From contig NZ_JAAIXY010000036.1 in NCBI RefSeq assembly GCF_010894455.1, positions 1-64,000 on the forward strand: a DNA stretch of 64,000 bases, in the 5' to 3' direction. The DNA is from Myxococcus eversor. GTDB lineage: Bacteria; Myxococcota; Myxococcia; Myxococcales; Myxococcaceae. Made by a program: the position numbers and the translations under genes. The notes beneath the pieces were generated by a model that saw nothing but the letters and a program-made list of their open reading frames with translations, was not told the origin of the DNA and searched no databases. The first letter of the stretch is position 1. The number at the start of each line of letters is the position of its first letter. Of this stretch, positions 33,959 through 35,800 are shown piece after piece.

Positions 33959-33987
33959 TTGACTCACGTGGGGCGAGCGTTTATCCC
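33959..33987 (+). promoter_or_regulatory. Candidate sigma-70-type promoter of the metX-like gene
   Basis: TTGACT (33959-33964) is followed after 17 bases by TATCCC (33982-33987). The transcript would begin at about 33994-33996, on or next to the ATG of the leader peptide, and would have about 230 untranslated or leader bases before the metX-like start. Confidence 0.45.
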
Positions 33988-33995
33988 TAGCGCCG

Positions 33996-34064
33996 ATGAC
34001 GTCCCTTCTCGCCATGCGTCGAATGTCGATGACAGGTGGGCTCCCGCCCGCCCGCGTCGGCTGA
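33996..34064 (+). CDS. Candidate methionine-rich leader peptide upstream of metX-like gene
   Basis: A 22-codon open frame starts ATG ACG TCC and stops with TGA at 34062. The peptide begins MTSLLAMRRMSMTGG, so methionine is encoded at positions 1, 7, 10 and 12. A second in-frame ATG is at 34014. There is no Shine-Dalgarno sequence, but the candidate promoter would place the transcription start at this ATG (leaderless translation). Codons 14-16 overlap segment A of the attenuator described next. Met-rich leader peptides would make sense before a methionine gene; the idea needs experiment. Confidence 0.5.
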   Translation: MTSLLAMRRMSMTGGLPPARVG

Positions 34065-34130
34065 CGTCCATCCGACCCTGGCGAGCCACCGAGCCCACCC
34101 ACCCCGCGAGGGTCGGTGGGCTTCGTCGTT
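34035..34130 (+). promoter_or_regulatory. Candidate attenuator with alternative hairpins
   Basis: Three short segments can pair in two ways. Segment A GGTGGGCTC (34035-34043) is a perfect complement of segment B GAGCCCACC (34091-34099). B can instead pair with segment C GGTGGGCTT (34115-34123), with four more pairs (34101-34104 with 34110-34113) extending the stem. The B:C hairpin is followed by CGTCGTTTCT, a tail shared with other terminator-like hairpins in this window. A:B pairing would block it. This is the layout of a transcription attenuator; the sensing step (leader ribosome or ligand) is unproven. Confidence 0.5.
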
Positions 34131-34223
34131 TCTGGCCCTCCTTCAGCGCCCTCGCGCACTCCCACAGGAGCGCAGCGAAACCGTTCCGCCCGAGCTGAAC
34201 CTGGTTCCCACCCGGACGCCCCC

Positions 34224-35576
34224 ATGCGCCCGCGACGCCACCCGCTTGCCCGGAGTCTCCCCTTGGCCTCCCTCACCTGCGCGCCCACGCCGCGCCTCTT
34301 CGAAGTGACACCGCCGGACCTGACGCTGGAAGCAGGTGCGCGCATCGCTCCCCACCTCGTGCGCGGCTGGTGGTGGGGCCCCGAGGACGACCTGCCGTGG
34401 CTCCACGCTCGCGCCCGGCTCCTCCCGGATGAAGAAGCCCGGGGCACCACGCCGCGCGTCGTCCGTCGCACCCTCGCCGAGCAACACCACGCCGTCGAGC
34501 GCACCCGCCGTCGAAGCGACACCCGCCCCTCCTCGCGCGTGCCCACCGTGCTGCTCGTGCACGCGCTCACCGGAGACATGCGCGCTGGAGGTGAAGGCGG
34601 CTGGTGGGAGCCCGTCATCGGCCCGGGGCGCGCGCTGGACCCGACTCGCGTGCGGCTCTTGTGCTTCAACAACCTCGGCTCCTGCTACGGCACCTCGGGC
34701 CCCGCCGATGAAGGATTTCCCCGTCGCACGGACGACACGCGCTTCGGGCCTCCGCCCACGCTCGCCAAGGGCGACCTCCGCCAGGATGAGCAGCACCTTC
34801 CCGCCACCGTCACCCCGTGGGACCAGGCTCGAAGCATCCTCCTCGCGCTCGACGCGTTGGGCATCCAGGAGGTGGACCTCGTCACCGGCGGCTCGCTGGG
34901 CGGAATGATTGTCCTCTGCCTCGCCGCGCTCGCTCCGGAGCGCTTCGCGCGCATGGCCCCCATCGCCACGGCCGAGGCCGCGTCGTCGTGGGTGGTGGGA
35001 CTCAACCACGTCGCACGGCAGGCACTGCTCCTCGACCCAGGCTTTCCCGAGGCACCGCATCGCGGACTCGAGCTCGCGCGACAGCTCGCGATGCTCACGT
35101 ACCGCGCCGAGCCTGGACTCGAAGCCAGTCAGCAGCGGCCGCCGACGTGGTCCTCCCGCGCGCTCTACCCCGTGCAGAGCTACCTGGAGCATCAGGGGCG
35201 CAAGCTGGAGGCCCGCTTCGATGCGCGCGCGTACCTCGTGCAGCTCGGAGCCATGGACCACCACGACCTCTCGCGCGCGCCTCATGGCGGACTGGAGCGA
35301 ATCCGCGCGAGCGCGCTGTGCGTGGGCATCGACAGGGATCAGCTCTTCTTCCCCGAGCACATGGCGGCCATTGCCCAGCGCCTGCGCACGCTCGGACGCC
35401 ATGCGGAGCACGCGGAGCTGTCCAGCCTGTACGGGCACGACGGCTTCCTCGTTGAGTGGGAGCCACTCGCGGCCCTGCTCACACGAGCCCTCGCGCTGCC
35501 CTCCGCTCTGGAGCCGGGAGGCCCCGCGCTTGCGTCTACCAGCGCCACCCGCCCCGCTTCCGCGCGGCCGGTGTGA
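34224..35576 (+). CDS. MetX-type homoserine O-acyltransferase family protein
   Basis: 450 residues of the alpha/beta hydrolase homoserine O-acetyltransferase family. The nucleophile elbow reads VTGGSLGGMIVL, the acid lies in VGIDRDQLFFPEHMA and the His in SLYGHDGFLVEW, all in MetX style; the early motif is VLLVHALTGD and GSCYGTSGP is typical. It likely acylates homoserine in methionine synthesis, although the active-site details were not modelled. No metY neighbour is seen. A candidate leader/attenuator precedes it. The last 25 residues (Ala/Pro-rich) are encoded by the first unit of a tandem repeat. ATG 34224 lacks a strong ribosome-binding site. Confidence 0.85.
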   Translation: MRPRRHPLARSLPLASLTCAPTPRLFEVTPPDLTLEAGARIAPHLVRGWWWGPEDDLPWLHARARLLPDEEARGTTPRVVRRTLAEQHHAVERTRRRSDTRPSSRVPTVLLVHALTGDMRAGGEGGWWEPVIGPGRALDPTRVRLLCFNNLGSCYGTSGPADEGFPRRTDDTRFGPPPTLAKGDLRQDEQHLPATVTPWDQARSILLALDALGIQEVDLVTGGSLGGMIVLCLAALAPERFARMAPIATAEAASSWVVGLNHVARQALLLDPGFPEAPHRGLELARQLAMLTYRAEPGLEASQQRPPTWSSRALYPVQSYLEHQGRKLEARFDARAYLVQLGAMDHHDLSRAPHGGLERIRASALCVGIDRDQLFFPEHMAAIAQRLRTLGRHAEHAELSSLYGHDGFLVEWEPLAALLTRALALPSALEPGGPALASTSATRPASARPV

Positions 35577-35800
35577 GGCAGGGATGCAGCCCATCTTGCT
35601 CGGCGCTGGAGCCCGGCGACCCTGCGCTCGCAGCCACCAGTGCCGCACGCACCATTTCCGCGAGGACGGTGTGACGATGGGCCTCAGCCCATCTCGCCAT
35701 GCTGCCCTCGGCGCTGGAGCCCCGAGGCTCCGCGCTCGCCTCCACCAGCGCCACCCGCCCAAGGACGGTGTGACGCCGGGACTCAGCCCACCTTGCGCTG
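35471..35800 (+). repeat. 98-99 bp degenerate tandem repeat at the metX-like 3' end
   Basis: Units share the phrase CGGTGTGA at 35569, 35667 and 35766, giving periods of 98 and 99 bases. Each copy continues with CAGCCCA-(C/T)-CT, GCGCTGGAGCC and CCACCAG-x-GCC. The first unit (about 35471-35568) codes for the end of the metX-like protein and the TGA in GTGTGA is its stop; the later copies are non-coding. The last partial unit runs into the 3' end of the channel-like gene. A duplication of the 3' end of the metX-like gene that has since diverged fits best. Confidence 0.7.

Follow-up and report, generated by a model that had tools for sequence, protein, structure and literature searches.

The window, by which we mean the whole 64,000-nucleotide stretch of Myxococcus eversor DNA analysed here, contains a metX-like gene and, upstream of it, a short methionine-rich frame with RNA segments that can pair in alternative ways (Table 1). 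The first-pass annotation had described a TTGACT-N17-TATCCC pair followed by an ATG and a 22-codon frame with Met at positions 1, 7, 10 and 12, and both were read directly from the DNA. The ATG lies 8 nt downstream of the -10-like box, and the frame carries three internal Met per 21 residues and no Cys codon. Given a Met frequency of 1.8%, a general figure that was not measured here, at least three Met in 21 residues would arise by chance with a p of about 0.006. A generic scan of the window leader for promoters and terminators returned none of either, so that the support for both is their conservation.

Table 1. Positions of the promoter-like pair, leader frame, pairing segments and metX-like gene in the window, and of the cysteine-codon leader in the same genome
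Feature	Position	Strand	Remarks
Promoter-like pair TTGACT / TATCCC	33959..33987	+	TTGACT 33959-33964, 17-nt spacer, TATCCC 33982-33987
Leader frame MTSLLAMRRMSMTGGLPPARVG, then stop; 22 codons	33996..34064	+	ATG 33996-33998; Met at 1, 7, 10, 12
Segment A, GGTGGGCTC	34035..34043	+	A1 core GGTGGGC 34035-34041; partner A2 or B
Segment A2, GCCCGCC	34046..34052	+	partner A1 (hairpin of -13 kcal/mol), or 34080-34083, forming the outer helix of the inner hairpin
Inner hairpin (2:3)	34046..34086	+	includes UGA; enclosed by A:B
Segment B, GAGCCCACC	34091..34099	+	antiterminator with A or terminator with C
Segment C, GGTGGGCTT, with CGTCG and weak U tract TTTCT	34115..34133	+	terminator 3' side
metX-like gene, homoserine O-acetyltransferase family	34263..35576	+	probable start TTG; GGAG 34252-34255
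Cys leader MARLLTHACCCCHAPAVGACRPLA, then stop	G000:C51:56874-57025 (L129 501-652)	+	window's own genome

The product of the metX-like gene scored 231 bits against TIGR01392, below the 500-bit cut-off, which none of the 14 control genomes reached either. Its best solved relative is 2b61 (E 4e-37). MetA (PF04204) was not found in the window's genome, which holds one further full-length but weaker TIGR01392 match (142 bits). We therefore filed the gene as MetX-like on the basis of homology, gene order with metY and the absence of MetA from the genome. The start had earlier been placed at ATG 34224, an assignment that is probably wrong: the two relatives nearest to the window (L003, L004) have ACG and GCG at this codon. 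The TTG at 34263, behind GGAG, aligns with ATG in two others (L011, L012) and is, judging from these alignments, probably the start. A tandem repeat of a 98-base unit, with two copies that agree at 75%, overlaps the 3' end of the gene (35501-35694), and a third, degenerate copy was recognized by eye. Relatives of the MetX protein with 48-51% identity occur in MAGs titled Lacunisphaera, Verrucomicrobia and Gemmatimonadota (L204-L207), closer than expected for such distant groups.

The perfect pairing of A with B and the alternative pairing of B with C are both present in the window as first described. A pairs with B at 9/9 positions, and C (GGTGGGCTT, 34115-34123) pairs with B as well, the outermost pair being a G-U; downstream of C come CGTCG and TTTCT (34124-34133). 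The two pairings share B and are thus mutually exclusive, and A lies inside the frame. Besides the gene start, the earlier reading is refined in two respects: A also pairs with the nearer A2, and the inner hairpin sits within A:B. Two overlapping perfect 8-bp stems appeared in 3/2000 dinucleotide shuffles of the leader (7-bp stems: 48/2000). The stretch from A to B folds as one long hairpin (-37.1 kcal/mol, z -4.9; 0/200 shuffles as good), and the terminator stretch forms a stable stem (z -2.7; 1/200 shuffles as good) with the tail TTTCT, in which the generic scan found no terminator. A further helix at the base of the terminator, UGGCG (34079-34083) with CGUCG (34124-34128), is part of the RNAalifold consensus, with pairing in 96.7% of cells, and is absent from the window's own minimum free energy (MFE) structure.

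In order to follow the leader in relatives, we built a covariance model (R1) from 49 distinct leaders, to which the 54 leaders that were read collapse for alignment and folding. A protein search for metX matched 72 of 96 family genomes, five of them only weakly (G033, G035, G040, G041, G043), leaving 67. At 60 bits or more, R1 detected the leader in 57 of the 96 Myxococcaceae genomes, all within the 67 with strong metX; by the same threshold it is absent from 10 of the 67. Because R1 necessarily matches the sequences it was trained on, what this result adds independently is that no genome without strong metX reached 60 bits. The best score in such a genome was 53.6 bits (G049) and belongs to a Cys-type frame. 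Three of the 57 matches were not read, two because they lie on contigs other than that of metX (G023, G017) and one because it is a 107-base partial match (G027). The 54 leaders span six genus groups, which by record title include Myxococcus with Pyxidicoccus (the window's group), Corallococcus, Archangium and Citreicoccus. One of the related records bears the title M. xanthus strain AM003. A metY-metX pair with a Met leader is also found in BNCN01000001.1 (L191), a record titled Comamonas sp. KCTC 72670, whose title looks wrong.

metX follows the leader immediately in 23 of the 54 cases, all in the window's genus group, and metY intervenes in the other 31 (metY-metX). All 31 intervening genes carry the MetY motif, and the three MetY proteins tested were above the TIGR01326 cut-off. 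The leader is kept at metX in the 23 genomes without metY at this place. OAH/OAS-sulfhydrylase-like stretches of the window's genome lie at G000:C40:105768-107931 and on C10 at 305435-306586 and 378904-380034, two of them in tandem; none was above the TIGR01326 cut-off, and the R1 leader is absent there.

The promoter-like region differs between genera. TATCC stands at the -10 place in 27/54 leaders, which are the 27 from the window's genus, and the remaining 27 have TTGACA 33 nt upstream of the ATG together with a different -10-like box. Across the relatives TTGACW lies 31-33 nt upstream of the leader ATG; a distance of 37 in five rows is an artefact of overlapping TTGACTTGACT. As far as can be judged from sequence, the frame is probably translated without a leader sequence (leaderless), with the transcript start inferred only from the -10 and TTGACW spacing. 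Within the leader, the distance from ATG to A1 is 39, 42, 45 or 48 and that from A1 to the stop 17 or 20 in all 54 leaders, which means that length changes preserve the frame; the distance from the stop to C takes nine different values between 49 and 58. Every one of the 54 has 2-5 internal Met codons and a UGA stop. As the leaders are related by descent, these counts are not independent events.

At the RNA level, GGTGGGC (A), GCCC (A2), GAGCCCA (B) and GGTGGGCT (C) are invariant in the 49 distinct leaders. Pairing is possible in 100% of alignment cells for B:C, 96.8% for A1:A2, 94.6% for A1:B and 87.1% for the outer helix of the inner hairpin. Segment A has a GGT codon in 54/54 leaders, though this codon is rare (117/1921 Gly codons of metX genes), and its U is paired with B in 49/49 and with A2 in 38/49. 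The base opening A2 (alignment column 66) is G in 49/49, though it is the third base of differing codons. Taken together, the fixed GGT, the pairing pattern of its U and the constant third-base G make both A1:A2 and A1:B look selected. Over the 49 leaders, z for the stretch from A to B averages -4.4 (8/4900 shuffles as good); the MFE structure of this stretch contains the 7-bp core of A1:B in 49/49, and the MFE structure of the segment between A1 and B is a hairpin at the place of the inner hairpin in the 49 distinct leaders.

Compensatory changes in A, B and C had been suggested as a check, and here the outcome is divided: the pairings are conserved, but covariation is scarce and absent from the terminator. 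One antiterminator pair is changed on both sides in 12 sequences, a number reached in 3/500 column shuffles, and among the 49 distinct leaders the terminator structure has no pair altered on both sides. The core of the inner hairpin was left out of this count, since MAFFT does not align this hairpin correctly across genera. Covariation was abandoned as the main proof, the core being nearly invariant, and the case consequently rests on the coding signature, on the invariance of synonymous positions and on the codon swap described below.

Could the stem be nothing more than a conserved terminator of the ordinary kind within a long 5' region, with the frame and A having no regulatory role? Similar stems after unrelated genes do score weakly with R1, and 9 of 40 further R1 stretches are without a leader (for example L139, L140 and L147). 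However, those stems have neither frame nor A, whereas at metX A1:B is kept in 49/49 including the rare codon, and we hold this explanation to be very improbable. The same low probability applies to a metabolite-binding riboswitch, for SAM or another ligand, with a frame that overlaps it by chance. In favour of a riboswitch, such elements commonly control metX and metY, and the RNA is highly conserved. Such an element would leave the frame-keeping length changes and the Met codons unexplained, and Rfam gave no match at the gathering score in the window and nine related loci. A permissive Rfam scan returned four matches, to microRNA, snoRNA and sRNA families, all far below the cut-offs, and they were rejected.

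We then folded the leaders with ribosome-covered bases held unpaired and the RNA ending before C, using upstream footprints of 12-20 nt. With the ribosome stalled at the first internal Met, the probability of A1:B exceeded 0.5 in 49/49 distinct leaders for every footprint tried. At the last Met before A, A1:B formed in only 16-18 of the 49, this codon being past the switch point in most. In the window, with a 16-nt footprint, A1:B was 1.0 at Met7 and Met10, 0.56 at Ser11, 0.11 at Met12 and 0 thereafter. In this model, masking favours A:B, and hence antitermination, with the ribosome at Met7 or Met10, and the pairing is lost once the ribosome has passed. Stalling at the Met codons nearest A, with A itself masked, was a candidate that we dropped, as the masking runs favour earlier Met codons instead.

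Two features of the folding speak against such a switch. With C added to the RNA, B:C is the prevailing equilibrium pairing even for a ribosome placed at the first Met (mean 0.87 over 49 leaders; in the window 0.95 at Met7 and 0.63 at Met10), and the full leader is more stable in the terminator form in 48/49. Antitermination must therefore be a matter of kinetic trapping, which was not simulated. In the absence of a ribosome, A1:B exceeded 0.5 in 39/49 leaders and A1:A2 in 9, and termination by default thus requires that A1:A2 forms first and refolds slowly. Rough estimates of the barrier for A1:A2 refolding range from 14 to 34 kcal/mol.

The masked folds also bear on a different use of the same parts, in which a nascent-peptide or stop-codon pause at Gly-UGA covers A2 and frees A from behind for pairing with B, the signal being a metabolite or the release rate and not Met-tRNA. 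The end of the peptide is indeed conserved (GG..P....G and stop), as is UGA in 54/54, but the A1 and A2 sequences by themselves also impose the GG and the P. A ribosome placed at the stop allowed A:B in 33, 32, 22, 3 and 0 of the 49 leaders for footprints of 12, 14, 16, 18 and 20 nt, respectively. Short footprints thus permit the pairing in 22-33 of 49 leaders and leave it in 3 and 0 at 18-20 nt, and the cysteine-codon sister leaders lose it at the stop in 27/28. We consider a pause of this kind quite unlikely. Antitermination models that act at the stop only, including release-factor methylation as a SAM sensor, are a minor alternative that is not excluded.

The most informative comparison came from weaker, full-length matches of R1 at other loci. 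The 40 further R1 stretches that we fetched comprise 28 Cys leaders, two Cys-Cys frames, one frame rich in Ile, Leu and Val and the nine without a leader mentioned above. The 28 sister leaders are laid out like the Met leaders and contain 2-5 Cys codons and 0-1 internal Met. A sulfate-binding-protein motif is found downstream in 25 of them (the protein family was tested for L129 only); the other three (L135, L154, L157) precede different uptake genes, BtuF/BtuC-like in L135, which are possibly sulfur-linked transporters. The window's own genome has such a leader (MARLLTHACCCCHAPAVGACRPLA; Table 1), followed by a gene for an unassigned 436-aa protein and a sulfate-binding-protein gene. A model built from the 28 Cys leaders (R2) detected matches of at least 77 bits in 40 of 147 class genomes, including 27/27 of the window's genus group; 12 of the 40 were not read. 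At E 0.001, R2 detected no Cys leader in the 16 genomes of the Corallococcus group, where its single match (G029) is that genome's Met leader. R2 also detects the window's Met leader (E 9e-5). When masked folding was applied to the sister leaders, A1:B formed in 24/28 with the ribosome at the first Cys and in 1/28 at the stop codon; the four failures at the first Cys are CC or CRC forms. The finding that the same switch carries swapped codons where the genes behind it belong to the corresponding pathway is the strongest argument for sensing through the codons.

The remaining R1 stretches are recorded here as separate observations. The two Cys-Cys frames stand before DUF4395 genes (PF14340) in two other genera (L144, G049:C65:4546-4702, - strand; L145, G103:C145:2026-2190, + strand) and are perhaps additional cysteine attenuators. 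The Ile/Leu/Val-rich frame SISLIGLILVVLRDGCGPPF (L146, G101:C14:30370-30512, - strand), for which no start was assigned, ends in a stop, has similar stems and is followed by a TPP-enzyme gene of the acetolactate-synthase type by Pfam domains.

The sister leaders also raise the question of whether the element at metX, while built in the same way, senses cysteine or general sulfur limitation and not methionine. By its codons the sister leader is a Cys sensor, and Cys codons occur in 47/54 of the metX/metYX leaders, often beside Met (MCRMSM, MCMCSM). Against this, 7/54 leaders, the window's included, have no Cys codon at all, whereas internal Met codons are present in all 54. We regard cysteine sensing at metX as unlikely.

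Our preferred reading, to which we assign a probability of roughly 0.7, is that the element is a ribosome-mediated transcription attenuator for methionine synthesis, with the leaderless start, stalling, termination, direction of control and default state all inferred. We consider it very likely that the element exists and is conserved. What we observed is the sequence, its conservation, the mutually exclusive pairings, the association with metX or metY-metX and the Cys-codon sister leader, while the response to methionine is an inference made without expression data. The claim of methionine attenuation of the metX-like gene is accordingly supported in its design, by a short frame and pairings that are both conserved in 54 leaders from six genus groups. 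Neither the transcript start nor the methionine response was tested, so this support does not extend to function, which lies beyond the present evidence.

Under methionine attenuation, transcription would begin at or beside the ATG, and a ribosome would enter the Met-rich leader on leaderless RNA. If charged Met-tRNA were short, the ribosome would wait at Met7 or Met10 with its front edge at or short of A; A would remain free to pair with B around the inner hairpin, C would be left without a partner, and metX would be transcribed. With plentiful methionine, the ribosome would proceed and cover A, B:C could form, and transcription would end. Without any ribosome, the first partner of A should be A2, which is nearer than B, and this would lead to termination by default.

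Attenuators of the trp/his type are ribosome-mediated and use a short frame with codons of the pathway product. The metX leader resembles them in its product-codon frame, its mutually exclusive antiterminator and terminator and the predicted antitermination upon stalling, but differs in its Met sensor codons, leaderless start and weak U tract, and in the place of the competing strand A2, which is within the frame and downstream of the antiterminator strand A. SAM riboswitches likewise control methionine genes in cis through RNA; in contrast to those in Rfam, the metX leader has no Rfam match. Otherwise, methionine control is known via repressors (MetJ, MetR, SahR) and SAM riboswitches. We infer that the element is of a known general kind, and that the sensor amino acid, the leaderless layout and the host group are new.

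Comparing these features to published systems, a ribosome-mediated attenuator is described for M. tuberculosis ilvB1 in the available part of PMC13236596. Closer to our Cys sister leaders are the polycysteine leaderless short ORFs of mycobacteria (Canestrari et al. 2020, as cited in the portions of PMC9031893 and PMC13236596 at hand). In common with these, the metX leader would have a leaderless short frame that senses a sulfur amino acid through its codons, whereas it has Met codons, a methionine-synthesis gene and an intrinsic terminator-like B:C stem. The mycobacterial cysteine genes are termed a case of translation attenuation in the accessible text of PMC13236596, and no conserved terminator hairpins are reported for them in the sections available of PMC1262725, an actinobacterial survey whose same sections report elements for Trp, Cys and Leu but no methionine element. 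For the met operon of Xanthomonas campestris, extracts of PMC6230763 compare a 190-nt 5'UTR with the SAM-I aptamer and describe it as working chiefly at the level of translation, possibly with a contribution from attenuation; the term "leader peptide" does not occur in the text of that article. As would hold for the metX leader, methionine feedback in this Gram-negative bacterium comes from the 5' region and not from the promoter. A methionine-codon leader attenuator was not found in searches of an open-access library; most subscription papers were outside the scope, so that priority is uncertain.

On balance, we find it reasonably probable that myxobacteria have one exchangeable attenuator chassis for sulfur amino acids, with leaderless leaders, a common A-B-C switch, Met codons before metYX and Cys codons before sulfate uptake genes. 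The Met form would then be the first ribosome attenuator that senses methionine-tRNA, in which the sensed amino acid also initiates the leader; homology or convergence of both leaders remains undetermined. A survey of methionine regulons in Proteobacteria included, in the part of PMC4239095 available, only two delta groups, neither of them Myxococcales, and a Met-codon leader would, if true, fill this gap. It would also imply that stalling at methionine, which is also the initiator amino acid, can act as a sensor. The Met leaders and their Cys counterparts represent a natural codon-swap experiment that is testable in Myxococcus xanthus.
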